This document shows, piece by piece, positions 23,224 to 31,000 of a stretch of DNA of 64,000 nucleotides. The position numbers and the translations under genes were made by a program. The notes under the pieces were generated by a model. It had not been told where the DNA came from. It searched no databases and worked only from the letters and a program-made list of their open reading frames with translations. Every line of letters begins with the position of its first letter. Position 1 is the first letter of the stretch. The stretch is from Devosia sp. Root413D1. GTDB taxonomy: Bacteria > Pseudomonadota > Alphaproteobacteria > Rhizobiales > Devosiaceae. The stretch spans positions 124,001 through 188,000 of the forward strand of contig NZ_LMEA01000013.1 of assembly GCF_001425235.1 (NCBI RefSeq), in the 5' to 3' direction.

Positions 23224-24458
23224 TCGGCTGCGGTCTTTTCGGCCGTGCCGAAGCGCTTCTCGATATAGTCGGCGACCATCACCTTGAACTGCTCGGCGAC
23301 GTCGGCGCCGCGCAGCGTGGCGACCTTCTGGCCATCCACGAACACCGGCGCCGCCGGGGTTTCGCCGGTGCCGGGGAGCGAGATGCCGATATTGGCGTGC
23401 TTGGATTCCCCCGGGCCGTTGACGATGCAGCCCATCACCGCCACCGACAGGCTTTCGACGCCCGGATAGCGTTCCTTCCATTCCGGCATCGACGCACTCA
23501 GGTGGTCCTGGATTTCCTTGGCCAGCACCTGGAAAGTCTGCGACGTGGTGCGCCCGCAGCCCGGGCAGGCCGCGACCACCGGCAGGAACTGCCGGAAGCC
23601 CATGGTCTGCAGCAGCTCCTGCGCCACCCGCACTTCCTGCGTGCGGTCGCCGCCCGGCTCGGGCGTCAGCGACACGCGAATAGTGTCGCCGATCCCCTGC
23701 TGCAACAGGATGCCCATGGCCGCCGAGGAGGCGACGATGCCCTTCGAGCCCATGCCGGCCTCGGTCAGACCCAGGTGCAGCGCATAATCGCAGCGCGCCC
23801 CGAGGTCCTGATACACCGCGATCAGGTGCTGGACGTCCGACACCTTGGTCGAGAGGATGATCTTGTCGCGCCCGAGCCCGAGCTCCTCCGCCCGCTGCGC
23901 CGAGAGCAGCGCCGACTGGATGATCGCCTCGCGCTGCACCGCGGCCGCCGAAACCGGCGTCGCCGAGGCGGAATTCTCGTCCATCAGCCGGGTCAGCAGC
24001 TCTTCGTCGAGCGACCCCCAGTTCACCCCGATGCGCACTGGCTTGTCGTACTTCATCGCCAGCTCGATCAACGTCGCGAACTGCGTGTCGCGCTTCGCCT
24101 TGAAGCCGACATTGCCCGGGTTGATCCGGTATTTGGCCAGTGCTTCCGCCGCCGCCGGATGGTCGGTCAGGAGCTTATGGCCGATATAGTGGAAATCGCC
24201 GACGATCGGCACAGTGATGCCGCGCGCTGCCAGCCGGTCGCGGATATGCGGCACGGCTGCCGCGGCCTCATCGCGATCGACGGTGATGCGGACGATCTCG
24301 GAGCCGGCGCGCCACAGCTGCGCCACCTGGCGCACTGTCGCCTCGATATCGGCGGTATCGGTATTGGTCATCGACTGCACGACGATCGGCGCGCCGCCGC
24401 CCACCATCACGCCACCGACATTGACGCCGACCGACTGCCGACGGGGAGAAATGCTCAT
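23220..24458 (-). CDS. ispG: 4-hydroxy-3-methylbut-2-enyl diphosphate synthase
   Basis: A 412-residue iron-sulfur enzyme of the MEP isoprenoid pathway, converting methylerythritol cyclodiphosphate to HMBPP. The TIM-barrel part carries [16 protein letters not shown] and INPGNVG; the 4Fe-4S cysteines are in CPGCGRT and [11 protein letters not shown]. The ATG at 24458 begins [16 protein letters not shown] short imperfect palindrome of family C lies immediately upstream. The stop overlaps a 40-codon membrane protein gene. Confidence 0.96.
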
Positions 24459-24470
24459 CGAAAACCCCTG

Positions 24471-24520
24471 GAGCGCTTCAGCGAGAGTTGCAGTCGCTTC
24501 CCGCTCGAAGCGCGACAATC
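24471..24520. repeat. Short imperfect palindrome, family C, copy 1
   Basis: GAGCGCTTCAGCGAGAGTTG continues to CGCTCGAAGCGCGACAATC, giving imperfect arms around AGTTGCAGTCGCTTCC. It begins 12 bases upstream of the ispG start. It resembles rhizobial RIME-type intergenic palindromes. Related copies lie at 34120-34170 and 59051-59100. Confidence 0.6.
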
Positions 24521-24603
24521 ATGGACTTGCCGCCTCAGCAAATAGGCCTTTGAGGTTGAGGGCGCAATGTTACGAATGCGTGACCGATTGAAGCGAGCCG
24601 CTC

Positions 24604-24813
24604 ATGACCTTCCAAGCCTATCTCGACAATATCGAGAAGCAGACCGGCGTCACGCCGGACCAGTGGATCAGCCTTGCAACCACCAAGGGCTTCACCAAAC
24701 CCGGCACCAAGGCCACACAAATCACCGATTGGCTGAAGGCCGACTACCAACTCGGCCACGGCCACGCCATGGCGATCGTCAAGCTGCTGAGGGATCGCGC
24801 CGGACTGAAGTAG
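24604..24813 (+). CDS. DUF4287 small protein
   Basis: A 69-residue protein: FQAYLDNIEKQTGVTP, then TKATQITDWLKADYQLGHGH and AIVKLLRDRAGLK. This pattern is the DUF4287 family, small soluble alpha-helical proteins of unknown function, often found alone or fused to DUF5655. The ATG at 24604 is clear. It is divergent from ispG and convergent with a RidA-like gene 7 bases beyond its stop. Confidence 0.85.
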   Translation: MTFQAYLDNIEKQTGVTPDQWISLATTKGFTKPGTKATQITDWLKADYQLGHGHAMAIVKLLRDRAGLK

Positions 24814-24820
24814 CACCGCT

Positions 24821-25201
24821 TCAGTCGACGGCTATCGCCTCGATCTCGACCAGCAGTGGTGGCGCAGCGAGGGCCTTCACCACCAGCAGCGTCGTCGCCG
24901 GTGGCGGTGACGGCAAGCCGCCGCCGGCCGCCTGCATGAAACCGGGGATCAGGCTGTCGTCGGTGAGGTAAATCGTCACCTTGGCGAGGTTGGCCGGGGT
25001 CATTCCCGCTTCCGCCAGCACGGCATTGAGGTTGGCGACGGCGATCTGCGCCTGCTCGCCGATATCGGCGCCCATCCGACCGGCTGCGTCGACGCCAACC
25101 TGCCCCGAAATGTAGAGCGTGCGCGTGGCGTTGGTGGCAAGCGCGCCGTGACTGTACGGAGCCTGCGGGGCATTGCCGCCGGGGTTGAGCATTGTCAGCA
25201 T
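24821..25201 (-). CDS. RidA/YjgF-family protein
   Basis: A 126-residue trimeric-fold protein: NAPQAPYSHGA, TLYISGQVGVDAAGRM, NLNAVLAEAGMTPANLAKVT and the C-terminal PPLLVEIEAIAVD. RidA proteins hydrolyse reactive 2-aminoacrylate and other imines. The usual catalytic Arg falls near the position occupied by GFMQAA and is not obvious here, so this may be a divergent subgroup. The ATG at 25201 follows GAGAGGA. It lies 11 bases after a TetR gene and is probably in its operon. Confidence 0.82.
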   Translation of the reverse strand: MLTMLNPGGNAPQAPYSHGALATNATRTLYISGQVGVDAAGRMGADIGEQAQIAVANLNAVLAEAGMTPANLAKVTIYLTDDSLIPGFMQAAGGGLPSPPPATTLLVVKALAAPPLLVEIEAIAVD

Positions 25202-25212
25202 GGTGGATCCTC

Positions 25213-25800
25213 TCACTGCTTCTTGTTGTGTTGGGCACGGCTGGCATGCAGCCGCTCGAACGTGGCGCTGACCGCCCCTCGCATCGCTTCGAGGCTGGTG
25301 CCACTGCGCGAAAGCGTCAGCACGCCATGGTAGAGCAGCACCAGTTGCATGACCTCGCGTTCGGCGCCGACCGAGCCGATCTCGCGGGCCAGCACGCTCG
25401 CAATCCCCTCGCGCACCAGCGTCAGCGTTTCGGCAATGCCATCCGACGCGATGCCCGGTGCAGTGCCGAACTCGATGATCGAATTGTTGACGAGGCAGCC
25501 GTAGCCATCCGACAGCGGCGGTTCCAGTACCGAAAGATACAGCTGCTCCAGCTCTTCGAGCCCCGCATCCGCCCCGGCGAACGCGGCGACCCGTTGGCGC
25601 ACGAAGCCGTGCACGTAGTGCTCGAGCGCCGCCCGGAACAACCCGGCCTTGTCCCCGAACGCATTATAGATGCTGCCCGACACGAGCCCGGTTGCCCGCT
25701 CCAGCTCGGCGATCGAGGCATCGCGATAGCCATGCTGCCGGAAGGCATTGCCGGCGGCTGCAAGGACGGCGTCGCGATCGAAGCTGCGTGTTCTAGCCAT
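25213..25800 (-). CDS. TetR-family transcriptional regulator
   Basis: A 195-residue repressor. The N-terminal helix-turn-helix is typical: AFRQHGYRDASIAELERATG, then SGSIYNAFGDKAGLF. The C-terminal ligand domain contains YGCLVNNSIIEFG, seen in TetR_C_6-like regulators. It precedes the RidA-like gene in a two-gene operon, which it probably autoregulates through the palindromes just upstream. The inducer is unknown. Confidence 0.88.
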   Translation of the reverse strand: MARTRSFDRDAVLAAAGNAFRQHGYRDASIAELERATGLVSGSIYNAFGDKAGLFRAALEHYVHGFVRQRVAAFAGADAGLEELEQLYLSVLEPPLSDGYGCLVNNSIIEFGTAPGIASDGIAETLTLVREGIASVLAREIGSVGAEREVMQLVLLYHGVLTLSRSGTSLEAMRGAVSATFERLHASRAQHNKKQ

Positions 25801-25809
25801 GGCAGAATT

Positions 25810-25848
25810 GTAGAACGTACATTTTAGAATGCAAGTTCTAAAATCTAC
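25810..25848. promoter_or_regulatory. Candidate TetR operator (overlapping palindromes)
   Basis: TTTTAGAA (25822-25829) and TTCTAAAA (25836-25843) are perfect arms around TGCAAG, and TAGAAC/GTTCTA (25811-25816 and 25835-25840) form a second overlapping palindrome. The segment lies just upstream of the TetR start and is AT-rich against its surroundings. Confidence 0.6.
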
Positions 25849-25912
25849 ACCGAGTCTGCGACCGTCTGCAGCACCCCTTGAAGCCGTCATGGGCCGAGAC
25901 CATTTCTACGGC

Positions 25913-26221
25913 ATGAACAGGTTCTCGCTCCTCGCCCGCTTCCTCACCTTCCGCAAGGAACTCATCACGCTCTGGCGGGCCTTCGTCTCCGCCGAGACGC
26001 CGGTGCACCTGAAGGCGCTGATGCTGCTGGTGCCGGCCTACCTGTTGAGCCCGATCGACCTGATCCCCGACATGATCCCGCTGCTCGGCTGGGTCGACGA
26101 TTTCATCGTCGTGCCGCTGCTGGTCAGCCTGATCGTGAAGCTGCTGCCGCAGAAGGCGCCGATCTACCGGCGTACGGCCGACGGCGCCAAGGAGATCGAC
26201 GGCACCTATCGCCGGCGCTGA
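25913..26221 (+). CDS. DUF1232 (YkvA-like) membrane protein
   Basis: About 102 residues: LARFLTFRKELITLWRAF, then the DUF1232 core LLVPAYLLSPIDLIPDMIPL followed by GWVDDFIVVPLL. The family is made of small membrane proteins of unknown role. I place the start at ATG 25913; an ATG at 25889 would add GRDHFYG. It is divergent from the TetR gene and is followed after two bases by a 34-codon reading frame. Confidence 0.8.
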   Translation: MNRFSLLARFLTFRKELITLWRAFVSAETPVHLKALMLLVPAYLLSPIDLIPDMIPLLGWVDDFIVVPLLVSLIVKLLPQKAPIYRRTADGAKEIDGTYRRR

Positions 26222-26223
26222 CC

Positions 26224-26328
26224 ATGGCGCTCAGCTCAGAACAGTATGGCCGCGACAAACCCCAGTCGCTGAAACACTGGCTGGCGAGCTTCCTCGACGG
26301 GCTGCTGGACCGATTGCCAGTCCTCTAG
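26224..26328 (+). CDS. Possible 34-residue peptide coupled to the DUF1232 gene
   Basis: An ATG two bases after the DUF1232 stop (TGACCATGG) opens a 34-codon frame: ALSSEQYGRDKPQSLKHW then LASFLDGLLDRLPVL and TAG. It has an amphipathic-looking C-terminal half. Stop-start proximity and codon use are compatible with translation, but there is no independent support. Confidence 0.35.
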   Translation: MALSSEQYGRDKPQSLKHWLASFLDGLLDRLPVL

Positions 26329-26356
26329 CTAGATCGTTTCACGGTTGAGTCGTACT

Positions 26357-26390
26357 GCCCCTTACCCCAACCCTCTCCCAGGGGGACCGT
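26357..26390. repeat. Truncated family B repeat fragment
   Basis: CCCCTTACCCCAACCCTCTCCC followed by AGGGGG matches one arm of the CTCCCC/GGGGAG elements, but the mirrored outer arm is missing. It lies at the boundary of the patch that holds the tRNA-like gene and the XRE regulator. Confidence 0.45.
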
Positions 26391-26460
26391 GGTTGTAGCA
26401 ATGTGGACGGAAGGCCGCGCCGTCGCGGCGACCGCACTAGTTTGGCTTGTTCGATAGTGG

Positions 26461-26567
26461 GCGCAACGGCAGGACTTGAACCTGCGACCTCCCCGCCCAT
26501 AATGGGTCTTGCTACAGAATCCCAAAGTGTCGAAAACGGGGTGCTCTTCCGGCTGAGCTACGTTGCG
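26461..26567 (-). tRNA. tRNA-shaped gene with 41-nt anticodon loop
   Basis: On the minus strand the tRNA body is complete: 7-bp acceptor stem CGCAACG/CGTTGCG, T8-A9, D stem GCTC/GAGC with an 8-nt loop AGCCGGAA, anticodon stem CCCCG/CGGGG, 5-nt variable loop AGGTC, and T stem GCAGG/CCTGC with loop TTCAAGT. The discriminator is C and CCA follows in the genome (26460-26458). Removing 34 bases would leave the standard 73 nt. The loop between the anticodon stem strands is 41 nt instead of 7 and contains further short stems (GGG...CCC, CCCA-TTA-TGGG). It begins with TTTTCGA, which as a normal loop would give anticodon TTC. No identity is assigned. It starts 4 bases after the XRE gene stop. Confidence 0.6.
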
Positions 26568-26571
26568 AAAC

Positions 26572-27351
26572 TTAGAAAGTAACCTCTTCATCCGCCGCTG
26601 ACGAGGTCGTCTCCTCAGCTGGGCTTTCAAAACCGCCGCTCTCGAACGCCGGTGCGGTGGGGGGCACGTAGATGTTGTTTGCCTTCACCGTGATACGGTC
26701 GCCGCTCGAAAGCGGAGCCACGATCACCACGAAATTCGTGACAAGCTCGTACCGCGAACGGTTGGTGATATACATTTCGCCAGTGTCATAGTCTTGCCGC
26801 GGAATCTGGCTGCTGGCGGTGTAGGTTCCGGCGTAGAAAGCCACGCCCATGTCCTGAAGGACCTTAATCTGCTCACCAATCTTGACCGCTGCCCGCAGCC
26901 TATCTGACAGCGTGAGCGTGATGTTGTCCTGGGCTCGACGCCACGGGTCAGGCATAAGCTCTTCGAGCTTGCTGATGACGCTCGTGAGCGCTTCGATATT
27001 CTCGGGGGTGGGCTCTGCTTCGCAGGCGATCTTGCCGTCAAAGCTGTCGCGCACAACGTTGAGCAGCGCTATTCCAGACTGGACTCGGTTGAGGACAACA
27101 AGGCTCTTCGCCGTGAGTTCGTCGAGCTCTTCTGTCTGCGTCTCTACCGAAATGATCTGCGAAACAGGGACGTTGAGCGCCGCTGCAAGGCTCGAGAGCG
27201 TCTCCATCTGCAGCCGGGTTCCCTGCTCGGCCCGCTGCACGGTTCGACGATCGACCTTGCTCATAATGGCGAGCTTTTCCTGAGTCATGCCGGCGCTCTC
27301 GCGGAGCTCCCGCACTCTTTCGCCGTTTGACACTGTCATCTGCTTTTCCAT
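26572..27351 (-). CDS. XRE-family helix-turn-helix regulator with unknown C-terminal domain
   Basis: A 259-residue protein. Residues about 10-60 form an XRE/Cro helix-turn-helix: GERVRELRESAGMTQEKLAI followed by SKVDRRTVQRAEQG. The rest, about 200 residues, has a helical middle and a beta-rich end with FVVIVAPLSSGDRITVKANN and an acidic Ser/Thr-rich tail. I do not recognise this part. Alternative starts are ATG 27351 and ATG 27339. Base composition is lower in GC (about 57-60% in lines counted by hand) than most neighbours, and with the tRNA-like gene it looks like acquired DNA. Confidence 0.8.
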   Translation of the reverse strand: MEKQMTVSNGERVRELRESAGMTQEKLAIMSKVDRRTVQRAEQGTRLQMETLSSLAAALNVPVSQIISVETQTEELDELTAKSLVVLNRVQSGIALLNVVRDSFDGKIACEAEPTPENIEALTSVISKLEELMPDPWRRAQDNITLTLSDRLRAAVKIGEQIKVLQDMGVAFYAGTYTASSQIPRQDYDTGEMYITNRSRYELVTNFVVIVAPLSSGDRITVKANNIYVPPTAPAFESGGFESPAEETTSSAADEEVTF

Positions 27352-27609
27352 GACCCTGCTATAGCCGACATTCAGGCGACAGCAACACGTCATGCACGCG
27401 GCACACGCGCTGTCAGACCACGGATAGATACGAAATAGGTGCGGCTAACCCTTCGTCGTCGGCGCCGTAAAGCGGCACAAGTTCGGAGGGATGCGCAACG
27501 GGAAGCGGCAGCGAGCTTCATCCGGCTTCCAGGCTGCGCCTTGGGCGATGGACGGCAAGCGCCATTCTGTGCTCACCACTGCCGAAAACTGACAGTTACC
27601 CGGTCCAGG

Positions 27610-27629
27610 GTCTCCGCGATGACGGAGAC
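27610..27629 (+). promoter_or_regulatory. Hairpin covering the ribosome site of the EVE gene
   Basis: GTCTCCG (27610-27616) and CGGAGAC (27623-27629) form a perfect 7-bp stem with a 6-base loop. The GGAG in the second arm is the only plausible ribosome site for the ATG at 27635, so the hairpin could limit translation. Confidence 0.5.
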
Positions 27630-27634
27630 CGACC

Positions 27635-28054
27635 ATGACCAAGTACTGGATCGCAGTGGCCTCAGCCGAACACGCCCGTCGCGGGCGCGCCGGCTTCATG
27701 CAGGTCAACCACGGCAAGAAAGCCCCGCTCCAGCGCATCCGCGCCGGCGATGGGGTCACCTACTACTCGCCGGCCGAGACCATCGGCGGCAAGGACCGGC
27801 TGCAAAGCTTCACCACCATCGGCCGGGTGCGCGACGAAGCGCTCTACCAGGGCGTGATGGGCGGCGACTTCACACCCTGGCGACGCAATGTCGATTACGT
27901 CGAGGCAGTCGAAGCCCCGATCGCACCACTGCTCGAGCGGCTCGAGTTCACCCGTGGCAAGGCCAACTGGGGTTACCAGATGCGCTTCGGCCTGTTCGAG
28001 ATCAGTGAGAGCGACTTCCGCACCATCGCCACGGCAATGGGTGCGGAAGTCTGA
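27635..28054 (+). CDS. EVE-domain (PUA-like) protein
   Basis: A 139-residue single-domain protein: [16 protein letters not shown], then [20 protein letters not shown] and [15 protein letters not shown]. This is the EVE/UPF0310 fold, related to PUA and YTH domains that bind modified bases in RNA or DNA. Stand-alone EVE proteins occur near modification-dependent defence systems, but none is visible here. The ATG at 27635 lies just past a hairpin. Convergent with pyc, 3 bases apart. Confidence 0.87.
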
Positions 28055-28057
28055 GGC

Positions 28058-31000
28058 TTATTCGAACCGGACCAGGAGGTCCTTGGCGTCGATCTGGTCG
28101 CCTGGCTTCACCGTGACCTCGGCGACAATGCCGTCGGCTTCGGCGTGGATGGCGGTTTCCATCTTCATCGCTTCGATCGACAGCAGCACGTCGCCGGCCA
28201 CCACCTTGTCGCCGACCTTGATGCCGAGCGACGAGATCACGCCCGGCATCGGCGCGCCGATCTGCTGGGCGTCGCCCAGGGCCGCCTTGGCCCGGACCTT
28301 CACCTCGCCGACCTTCAGCCGGTCCGGCACGGTGATGGTGCGCGGCTGGCCGTTGAGGTCGAAGAAGACGCGCACTTCACCCTTTTCGTTGGTCTCGGTA
28401 CGGCCCTGGTAGGTCAGCACCAGGGTCTTGCCCTTCTCGAGGTCGAGGAACACTTCCTCGCCCTCCTTGAGACCATAGAAATAGATCGGCGTCGGCAGCA
28501 CCTCGGTGGGGCCGTACTTGTCCTGCGTCTTGACGAAGTCCGCATACACCTTGGGATACATCAGGTACGAGGCGAGCCGCTTGTCATCGACCTCACCGCC
28601 GATGTCCTTGACTACCTTCTTGCGCTCGGCCTCGAGATCGACGTCTTTGAGGTATGAGCCCGGCCGTTGGGTCAGCGGCTTCTTGCCCTTCAGCACCTTC
28701 TTCTGCAGGGCGGCGGGGAACCCACCCGGCGGCTGGCCCAGGTCGCCAGCAAAGAACCCGACCACCGAATCCGGGAAGGCGATATCGCGCTGCGGGTCCT
28801 CGACATCGGCGCGGGTCAGCCCGGCCGACACCATGGCCAGCGCCATATCGCCCACCACCTTGCTCGACGGCGTCACCTTCACGATGTCGCCGAACATCTG
28901 GTTCACGTCGGCATAGGTCTGCGCCACCTGGTGCCAACGGCTTTCCAGACCAAGGGAACGGGCCTGCTCCTTAAGGTTGGTGAACTGCCCGCCCGGCATT
29001 TCATGCAGGTACACTTCCGAGGCGCCGCCCTTCAGGTCGCTCTCGAAGGCGCGATACTGGTTACGCACCGCTTCCCAGTAGAACGAGATCTCGCGGATCA
29101 CCTTCTGGTCGAGCCCGGGGGCACGAGGCCCATCCTTCAGCGCCGCGACGAGCGAGCCGAGCGTCGGCTGCGACGTCGTGCCCGACAGCGCGTCCATTGC
29201 CGCATCGACCGCATCGACGCCGGCATCCACCGCCGCCATGATCGTCGCGGAAGCCGCGCCCGAGGTGTCGTGCGTGTGCAGATGGATCGGCAGGCCGATT
29301 TCCTGCTTCAGTGTCTCGATCAGTTTCTTGGCCGCGGCGGGCTTCAGCAGCCCCGCCATATCCTTGAGCCCCAGCACATGCGCGCCGGCGGCTTCGAGCT
29401 CCTTGGCCAGCCCGACATAATATTTGAGGTCGTACTTGGCCCGATCGGGGTCGAGCAGGTCGCCGGTATAGCAGATGGCGCCTTCGGCCACCTTGTCGGC
29501 CTCGATCACCGCGTCGATCGAGACGCGCATGTTCTCTACCCAGTTGAGGCAGTCGAACACCCGGAACACGTCGACCCCGCCCTTCGCCGCCTGCGAGACG
29601 AAGAACTTCACCACGTTATCGGGGTAGTTAGTGTAGCCGACGCCGTTCGAACCGCGCAGCAGCATCTGCGTCAGGATATTGGGCGCGCCCTCGCGCACTG
29701 CCGCAAGCCGCTCCCAAGGGTCCTCGTTGAGGAAGCGCATCGACACGTCGAAGGTCGCGCCACCCCAGCATTCGAGCGAGAACAGGTTCGGCAGCCCGCG
29801 GCTATAGGCCCGGGCGATACGCGTGATATCGAACGAGCGCATGCGGGTGGCGAGCAGCGACTGGTGCGCATCGCGCATCGTCGTGTCGGTGAACAGCACC
29901 TGTTCCTGCGCCTTCATCCAGCGCGCCAGGCCCTTGGGCCCGTCACGGTCGAGAATCTGCTTTGATCCCTCGACGACGATCAGCGGCTCGTATTCGGGCA
30001 CCACCGGCGCCGCGGCGTCGGCCGGCGGCCGCGGCCGGTCGCGCACTTCCGGGTGGCCGTTGACGGTGACGTCGGCGATATAGGTGAGGAGCTTGGTCGC
30101 CCGGTCCTGCCGCTGCTTGAAATCGAACAGCGCCGGCGTCGTGTCGATGAACCGCGTGGTGTAGCGGTTCTCGATGAAATCCGGGTGAGTGATGATGTTC
30201 TCGAGGAACGCCAGGTTGGTCGCGACGCCGCGGATGCGGAACTCGCGCAGCGCCCGGTGCATGCGGGCGATCGCCTCGTCAGCGCTCGGCGCCCAGCAGG
30301 TGATCTTTTCGAGCAGCGGATCGTAGAACCGGGTGACCACCGCACCGGCATAGGCGGTGCCGCCATCGAGGCGTACGCCGAACCCGGTCGCCTCGCGATA
30401 GGCGGTGATGCGGCCATAGTCCGGAATGAAGTTGTGCTCCGGATCCTCGGTGGTGACGCGGCACTGGATGGCATTGCCATTGAGCCGGATGTCTTCCTGC
30501 TTCGGCACGCCGGATTCGGGCGTGCCGATCACCGCGCCCTCGAGCAGCCGGATCTGCGCCTTCACGATATCGATGCCGGTGACCACTTCGGTCACCGTGT
30601 GCTCGACCTGGATGCGCGGGTTCACTTCGATGAAGTAGAATTTGTCGGTATCGGCATCGAGCAGGAACTCGACCGTGCCAGCGCCCCGGTAGTTCGCCGC
30701 CTGGCCCAGCCGGATCGCCGCGCCGGTGAGGTCGTCGCGCACCTGTTGGCTGAGATACGGCGCCGGCGCGCGCTCCACCACCTTCTGGTTGCGCCGCTGC
30801 ACCGAGCAATCGCGCTCGAACAGGTGCACTAGGTTCCCGTGGTCGTCGCCGATCAGCTGCACCTCGACGTGGCGGGCCCGCTCGATCAGCTTTTCGAGGT
30901 ACATCTCGTCCTTGCCGAACGCCGCCTTGGCTTCGCGCTTGCCCTCGGAGACTTCGTGGACCAGCGTCGACTCGTCCATGATCCGGCGCATGCCGCGACC

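Follow-up and report, generated by a model that had tools for sequence, protein, structure and literature searches.

An apparently undescribed family of tRNA-shaped RNAs encoded mostly behind regulator genes in proteobacteria

A tRNA-like gene of Devosia with a greatly enlarged anticodon arm belongs to an apparently undescribed family of tRNA-shaped RNAs and is not a broken tRNA. Its relatives, which lie on plasmids and chromosomes of alpha-, beta- and gammaproteobacteria, have the same architecture: they share one conserved RNA fold, with compensatory changes and an intact tRNA core, and are linked to regulator genes. Judged from sequence, the RNA would be a tRNA-Arg mimic that is recognised by ArgRS and does not decode, a reading to which we give slightly less than an even chance, the exact wiring being less certain still.

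A tRNA-Shaped Gene behind an XRE Gene

The gene lies in a 64,000-nt stretch of DNA from Devosia sp. Root413D1 (hereafter the window, whose numbering is used throughout) and forms a full tRNA cloverleaf on the minus strand, encoded CCA included (Table 1). An earlier note on this DNA had listed the constant elements of a tRNA (7-bp acceptor stem, T8, D arm with GG, 5-nt variable loop, TTCAAGT, and C followed by CCA), a CCCCG/CGGGG stem around 41 nt, and a start 4 nt past the stop codon of an XRE gene. All of these are present, on the minus strand, and two U-G wobbles lengthen the anticodon stem to 7 bp. The covariance-model search proposed in the same note matches the general tRNA family RF00005 at 26567..26461 with 54.4 bits against a gathering threshold of 29 (E 4.9e-10 in a 5-kb stretch), and the anticodon loop has 34 nt beyond that model. 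The Devosia genome yields 46 tRNA matches, namely the window RNA and 45 further ones, and both a nucleotide search and the family covariance model find the window RNA in single copy there. ARAGORN called none of the three family members on which it was tried, the window RNA among them.

Simple scans found no promoter-like site on the minus strand of 26100-27700 and no same-strand terminator-like site 3′ of the window RNA. Since no site was found 5′ of the XRE gene either, the promoter scan is neutral on joint transcription. Solved structures related to XRE proteins cover only their HTH part.

Table 1. Features of the window and tRNA-like genes of other loci
Feature	Position	Strand	Description
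tRNA-Arg-like RNA	26458..26567	-	110 nt with CCA, 107 without; Rfam RF00005 54.4 bits, R1 102.4 bits, R2 97 bits
5′ end of the RNA	26567	-	read from the sequence
Acceptor stem, 5′ strand, 7 bp	26561..26567	-	pairs with 26462-26468
D arm with G18 G19 A20	26543..26558	-	A20 = 26548, arginine identity base
Extended anticodon stem, 5′ strand CCCCGUU	26535..26541	-	pairs with 26491-26497 GGCGGGG
Conserved 5-nt bulge UUCGA	26530..26534	-	read as U33 U34 C35 G36 A37
Inner hairpin, 32 nt, between positions 37 and 38	26498..26529	-	covaries in relatives; weak in the window copy
T arm, TTCAAGT loop	26469..26485	-	sequence and RF00005 match
Base 73 (C); encoded CCA	26461; 26460-26458	-	sequence
XRE-family HTH regulator	26572..27393	-	Pfam HTH_3 1.2e-10; stop codon 4 nt before the RNA
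Insert holding XRE gene and RNA, ~1.2 kb	26361..27574		in 0/7 congener loci compared
IMG/VR tRNA-like	L163:1994-2096	-	
IMG/VR tRNA-like	L239:5739-5841	-	
IMG/VR tRNA-like	L242:1850-1953	+	
IMG/VR tRNA-like	L033:1472-1570	-	
IMG/VR tRNA-like	L213:5739-5847	+	
Herpetosiphon tRNA-like	L069:3080-3189	-	
Herpetosiphon tRNA-like	L079:6695-6804	-	
Herpetosiphon tRNA-like	L088:5141-5250	-	

Sporadic Occurrence across Proteobacteria

Relatives were reached by several routes. Plasmids searched by nucleotide sequence yielded relatives in Methylocaldum (a gammaproteobacterium) and Caulobacter, each directly 3′ of an HTH gene. The HTH proteins led, through 10 plasmid loci, to members in Methylosinus and Spongiibacter, and a further search to members on Xanthobacter and Acidisoma plasmids. 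A degenerate pattern run against 84,980 genomes, one for each species, hit 75 stretches, 38 of them with members (called at 66 bits or more with covariance model R1), from alpha-, beta- and gammaproteobacteria, unclassified proteobacteria, one “Parcubacteria” and one “Desulfurellaceae” bin. The motifs AGAGC, KTCKAC and GGTTCRAGTCC are uninformative as evidence in these members because the pattern itself fixes them. The other stretches held ordinary tRNA genes, an archaeal tRNA, Herpetosiphon RNA and apparent protein-coding matches. The archaeal tRNA, from Woesearchaeota (L106:664-741, minus strand), apparently has an ordinary archaeal anticodon-loop intron. Three Herpetosiphon species have in common a tRNA-like gene that does not encode CCA and whose anticodon region is longer by ~34 nt, a CCTCG-TTCG-CGAGG hairpin included (Table 1).

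With the bulge left free, R1 found five genomes besides the Devosia genome itself at 67 bits or more among 136 genomes of the bacterial family (G145, G146, G142, G007 and G102); all 136 match R1 at some level, since ordinary tRNAs reach ~65 bits. Covariance model R2 matched 5 of 385 genomes of the class at E 1e-15 and 4 of 398 genomes of the phylum, our own genome included in each case. An anticodon-free pattern matched 6 of 397 genomes of the order, 4 with members (L248 and L250 are not members), and it misses the window RNA, whose D loop is shorter by one base. The RNA family is thus sporadic, turning up in ~1% of the genomes drawn, which is what mobile DNA would lead one to expect.

A phage origin was considered and rejected: a phage collection searched with the window RNA and with the RNA of L030 gave no match, and the other tRNA-like genes of viral contigs lack the bulge, the exception being IMG/VR contig L030 itself, which holds one family member. 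A search of E. coli with the Alcanivorax RNA also gave no match. In the other viral tRNA-shaped genes, from IMG/VR, the anticodon arm continues as a long, nearly perfect hairpin that lacks the UUCKA bulge (Table 1); L213 has a 3-nt bulge and L242 folds otherwise. These genes are possibly another family of phage tRNA mimics.

One Fold with Compensatory Changes

Members have in common an anticodon stem of 6–7 bp, a bulge of 5 nt that usually reads UUCKA, and an inner hairpin that covaries. The first five, each folded alone, give the same arm, in which one or two wobble or Y-G pairs close the 6–7-bp anticodon stem and are followed by a one-sided 5′ bulge of 5 nt, the inner stem and the apical loop. 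Among 52 member rows folded singly, the minimum-energy fold has the 5-nt bulge in 34 and lacks it in 18, and it is also absent from the single fold of L254. Folded alone, the window copy is unremarkable (z -1.36 with CCA, -1.80 without), and its inner stem is among the family’s poorest (2 bp, an internal loop, then ~4 pairs), so the claim of structure rests on the relatives.

The comparison of homologues that the earlier note had called for speaks for a real structure, with the same architecture at dozens of loci and strong covariation. In an alignment of 6 sequences, 96.8% of cells are paired and 16/32 pairs show two-sided changes. When alignments were fitted to the covariance model, a procedure that favours the structure, 48 sequences gave 95.5% of cells paired, two-sided changes in 24/32 pairs (8/9 in the inner helix alone) and 248 two-sided cells as opposed to 66 under shuffled pairing, and a set of 20 sequences gave 94.9%, 26/32 pairs, and 126 cells as opposed to 33.5. 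Slid pairing, the second control beside shuffling, lowers the paired fraction to 36–56% across the three sets. Copies and near-copies (L112, L114, L082 and L084) and L047, which ends at a contig edge, were left out of the 48 rows. For the 20 sequences (window, L013-L015, L018, L254, L255, L113, L115-L117, L122-L127 and L251-L253) the bulge was not fixed in the search, and the set is partly biased toward it because the covariance models were trained on bulge-bearing sequences.

The family also has the tertiary set of the L-shape (8-14, 15-48, G18G19). U8-A14 and G18G19 are each found in 48/48 members, and the Levitt pair 15-48 covaries (G-C 32, A-U 13, other 3 of 48; G-C 10, A-U 9, other 1 in the 20-sequence set). 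On this pattern of substitutions, the tRNA core of the family is under selection too. Relatives score above the gathering threshold of RF00005 as well (L013 47.0, L014 47.9, L015 52.4 and L018 43.9 bits). Apical loops of the inner hairpins, judged by eye, are alike across members (UCGCA, UGACA, UAGCA, UGGCG), as if the tip were recognised by a protein or an RNA.

Arginine Identity Bases Are Constant and the Charging End Drifts

The native tRNA closest to the window RNA by end-to-end score is tRNA-Arg(UCU) (25.0, next 19.5; 30 of the 45 native loci compared). Among the 30 native tRNA loci compared, only the four Arg tRNAs have the A20 D arm GGATAGAGC; the automatic position-20 label for tRNA-Arg(UCU) is wrong owing to an extra G. 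In its passage on arginine identity, PMC9976931 gives A20 as the main determinant in E. coli, together with C35, base 36 and A/G73, base 36 being printed as U/C36 for the general set and, in the case of yeast, as G36 or U36, while an excerpt of PMC8318970 gives C35, U/G36 and A20.

A20 is invariant in the RNA family (48/48 and 20/20). When the bulge is numbered 33-37, counted from the stem, as the names C35 and U/G36 assume, its third base (35) is C in 20/20 and its fourth (36) is G in 10 and U in 10. The remaining bulge bases vary in the same 20 sequences: the first (33) is U in 14, G in 5 and C in 1, the second (34) is U in 16 and G in the other four (one of which, L125, has an extra base), and the fifth (37) is A in 17 and U in 3. 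The A20, C35 and U/G36 of an ArgRS ligand are therefore all found, and A/G73 is not. Base 73 is C in 22, U in 13, A in 11 and G in 2 of 48 members, CCA is encoded in 21/48, and pair 1-72 is unpaired in 13/48. This drift of base 73 and CCA is smaller in the 20-sequence set, where base 73 is C in 14/20 and CCA is encoded in 11/20. The family likewise lacks what a functional tRNA has, a 7-nt anticodon loop with U33 (the loop of the window RNA has 41 nt) and a constant discriminator with CCA.

Since position 33 is not a fixed U, the decoding loop is not the thing kept. Fixed recognition bases together with a freer charging end suggest that the RNA is kept for being recognised and not for being charged or read. 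A20, C35 and K36 could also be an inheritance from tRNA-Arg held by another constraint.

Most Family Members Follow Regulator Genes at Short Distance

Immediately upstream, in the same orientation, stands a gene of the HTH_36/DnaD_N type in 45/61 rows and an XRE gene in 4/61 (the window, L040, L113 and its near-copy L114). The 61 rows are not independent, as several Mesorhizobium rows are near-copies, like the pairs L062/L122, L067/L123 and L113/L114, and L043 and L075 each contribute an extra row for their second RNA. A stop codon lies 3–14 nt before the RNA in 40 of the 49 HTH_36- or XRE-led rows. Ten of the 61 rows have enough upstream sequence and neither gene, and L047 and L052, with too little sequence, stand outside this judgement. 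Among the ten, the RNA starts 6 nt after a DndB/DGQHR-type gene in L124 (Pfam; L124:364-1610, plus strand), 6 nt after an unnamed 211-aa frame in L098, and 28 nt after a frame in L041 that we take to be MerR-like; the remaining ones, for example L062/L122, L056 and L117, have no convincing upstream gene.

The HTH_36 protein matches the HTH_36 and DnaD_N domains. In an all-against-all comparison of the frames of 57 loci, the best 25 clusters include HTH_36 (42 loci), XRE and a recombinase (4 loci each) and a ParA-like ATPase (3 loci). If pairs and frames that overlap or run antisense are set aside, no further neighbour family in these clusters occurs in more than 4 of the 57 loci. Arrangements vary around this theme: in L043 and L075 a single gene is followed by two RNA copies, L070 has two gene-RNA units in tandem, and in Methylosinus a homologue of the window XRE gene (38% identical) lies upstream of an HTH_36-RNA pair. 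Relatives of the regulators also occur without the RNA, both for XRE (L016 and L017) and for HTH_36 (6 of 7 loci followed from the HTH proteins). The conserved spacing of 3–14 nt behind different regulators supports joint transcription, as the earlier note had suspected for the XRE gene. Such tight spacing can also be explained as plain operon packing.

A Chromosomal Insert in Devosia, and Defence Genes near Other Members

Comparison with congeners delimits the unit in Devosia. An EVE gene is present in 8/19 genomes of the genus, our own included, and in the other seven EVE loci the stretch before it (the DUF1232 side) and the EVE gene lie close together. The junction falls at 26221-26360 and 27571-27576 in L289-L293, and L294 and L295 also lack the insert. 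Its absence from all seven congener loci implies that the module arrived as ~1.2 kb (delimited against L290). At the insert ends, neither a target duplication nor a terminal inverted repeat was conspicuous. The window copy is flanked by ordinary chromosomal genes, and G007, from the same genus, carries a different unit, in which the gene is of the HTH_36 type (L116).

Some members have defence genes as neighbours. QatB, QatC and QatD lie near the RNA in Mesorhizobium (L073:426-3456, plus strand) and QatC and PD-Lambda-3 in Phenylobacterium (L075:679-3197, plus strand), and a localised scan of these two loci gave strong defence matches in 6/10 proteins. Sng in L065, PD-Lambda-1 in L060 and MzaA in L109 are further cases; of 10 proteins picked from other loci, a localised scan found 3 strong, 1 weak and 6 without a match. 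A pooled PADLOC search of 104 neighbours from 26 loci reached E <=1e-50 in 18 of the best 25 of 96 families, at least some of these families being one protein matched by several models; the test set comprised 104 of 169 called ORFs, plus 10 from L073/L075. In a control with unmatched taxa (101/111 ORFs from 18 other loci), 0/23 families reached E <=1e-50, the best having 6.7e-36. This neighbourhood says “mobile island” and does not say function.

A Possible ArgRS-Responsive Element and Its Alternatives

We propose that gene and RNA form a two-part mobile module, in which the gene of a DNA-binding regulator (XRE in the window, HTH_36/DnaD_N-like in most relatives) would be paired with a tRNA-Arg-derived RNA that carries a bulged hairpin for an anticodon loop and usually starts 3–14 nt behind the stop codon. 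Both would be made on one transcript, being 4 nt apart in the window. RNase P is established as cleaving tRNA-shaped substrates at the tRNA 5′ end; a cut at the 5′ end of this RNA would free a stable ~107-nt RNA and leave the regulator mRNA with a bare 3′ end and no 3′ hairpin. ArgRS, which normally acts on a 7-nt loop, would recognise the RNA through A20 and the bulge; charging would not be needed, and decoding would be impossible. Free ArgRS, which would be high when tRNA-Arg is scarce or damaged, could then bind the RNA and compete with RNase P, and the mobile element's regulator would be tuned by this competition. The acceptor stem would have its first bases covered by a ribosome that is terminating on the regulator gene.

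Because ArgRS could in this way compete with RNase P cleavage, an ArgRS-responsive regulator is the reading that we favour, and the RNA would most likely be used as an ArgRS-responsive element. It is conceivable, albeit doubtful, that the RNA represents a new regulatory class as a whole, in which a full tRNA-Arg body with a display bulge would serve a mobile element as a sensor of ArgRS and set the element’s own regulator through competition with RNase P. Of the three options raised in the earlier note (a pseudo-tRNA, a tRNA with a small novel insert, and a tRNA-mimic RNA that does not decode), the last fits best.

The RNA might instead act in trans, as a decoy that ties up ArgRS or an Arg-tRNA anticodon nuclease, with a toxin-like, defence or anti-defence effect and transcription controlled by the HTH protein. 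Regulators that are exchangeable (HTH_36, XRE) beside a constant RNA would be expected of such a decoy, the doubled RNA copies and tandem units agree with it, and so do the nearby Qat, PD-Lambda-3, Sng, PD-Lambda-1 and MzaA genes, for which the taxonomically unmatched control held no equally strong match. However, the distance at which the RNA follows the regulator gene points to coupling in cis, and a defence neighbourhood is general for mobile islands, so that we regard titration in trans as a possibility to be held with some doubt.

A second alternative is an intron-containing tRNA-Arg, whose hairpin at 37/38 would be removed by a bacterial splicing route to give a working tRNA-Arg(UCU/UCG). 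The insert does sit at the canonical 37/38 position, and most members, once rid of it, would have a 7-nt loop that contains U34 C35 K36. Yet the junction has 5 nt on one side and 0 on the other and forms no bulge-helix-bulge, position 33 is not U in 6/20 and position 34 not U in 4/20, and the inner stem, which splicing would discard, is kept by covariation. The small insert envisaged in the earlier note is disfavoured because U33, base 73 and CCA are not kept, although it still has a slim chance of being correct.

Equally, a replication-control or primer RNA, belonging to a plasmid type with the HTH_36/DnaD-like protein as its initiator, would be unlikely. It would account for the sole solved-structure match of the Methylocaldum HTH_36 protein, a weak one to the DnaD N-terminal structure 2vn2 (E 0.0016), for a weak RP-C match below the cut-off (E 0.0017), and for gene tables that name no replication protein in two plasmids (Spongiibacter and Methylosinus). 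Against it, the surroundings of the HTH_36 gene in 5 plasmids hold no iteron arrays but only two-copy repeats, these in 3/5, the unit also occurs alone in chromosomes, and XRE takes the place of HTH_36 in some members.

A broken or chance tRNA-like sequence, as the single copy in its own genome and the weak inner stem of the window copy might indicate, is extremely improbable and is ruled out by dozens of relatives that agree in fold, bulge and linkage, just as the pseudo-tRNA option of the earlier note is refuted by the existence of conserved relatives whose inner stem covaries.

If the ArgRS-responsive reading is true, mobile elements would sense the rise of free ArgRS that comes with depletion of tRNA-Arg, for example in infection or through anticodon nucleases, and tRNA biology and defence islands would possibly be linked in a new way. 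The fixed recognition bases and the freer charging end make it a testable claim that a mobile element uses a tRNA mimic outside translation, and the two-part module is compact enough for testing control of a regulator by synthetase availability.

Comparison with Known Systems

In Rfam 15, the general tRNA family is the only match for the window RNA and for those of L013, L014, L015 and L018, and none has a separate family; a structured RNA family has been absorbed there into “tRNA”. Among the papers listed by searches of open PMC full text, none describes such an RNA as far as its title and the opening of its abstract show. In 5/6 plasmids (Methylocaldum, Caulobacter, Methylosinus, Xanthobacter and Acidisoma), the gene table skips one locus tag where the RNA lies, so the original records may carry it there as an RNA gene.

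The nearest relative in form is tRNA-Arg(UCU/UCG) (RF00005), with which the family shares the cloverleaf, the L-shape contacts, A20, C35 and U/G36. In contrast to tRNA-Arg, it has a bulged stem and an inner hairpin for an anticodon loop, does not keep base 73 and CCA, and lies behind regulators. tmRNA is marked by G3-U70 and a tag region, whereas pair 3-70 of the family is CG in 42 and UA in 6 of 48, and tmRNA searches of the window stretch (ARAGORN; Rfam, 24001-29000) gave no match. The likeness to tmRNA (compare PMC3985003) is that of a tRNA-like bacterial RNA without decoding by an anticodon loop. Rfam gave no match to a group I or group II intron in 24001-29000, and the inner hairpin has only 32 nt. 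The catalytic core of such introns takes up hundreds of nucleotides. Archaeal and eukaryotic tRNA introns at position 37/38 resemble the inner hairpin in place and approximate size. They are bounded by a bulge-helix-bulge, two 3-nt bulges around a 4-bp helix, which the family lacks; its inner stem covaries instead, and a mature loop would often be without U33.

Two further systems are comparable in logic. Synthetase-binding tRNA mimics such as the thrS operator of E. coli and the viral tRNA-like structures keep the recognition bases of a synthetase, as the family does, and are not ordinary tRNAs; unlike them, the family keeps the whole tRNA body, lies 3′ of its gene and occurs on mobile elements. 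Type III toxin-antitoxin systems, in which an RNA repeat array precedes the toxin gene, are likewise sporadic modules of a small protein and an RNA on plasmids and chromosomes, whereas the protein of the family described here is a DNA-binding regulator and its RNA follows the gene in one or two copies, with no repeat array.
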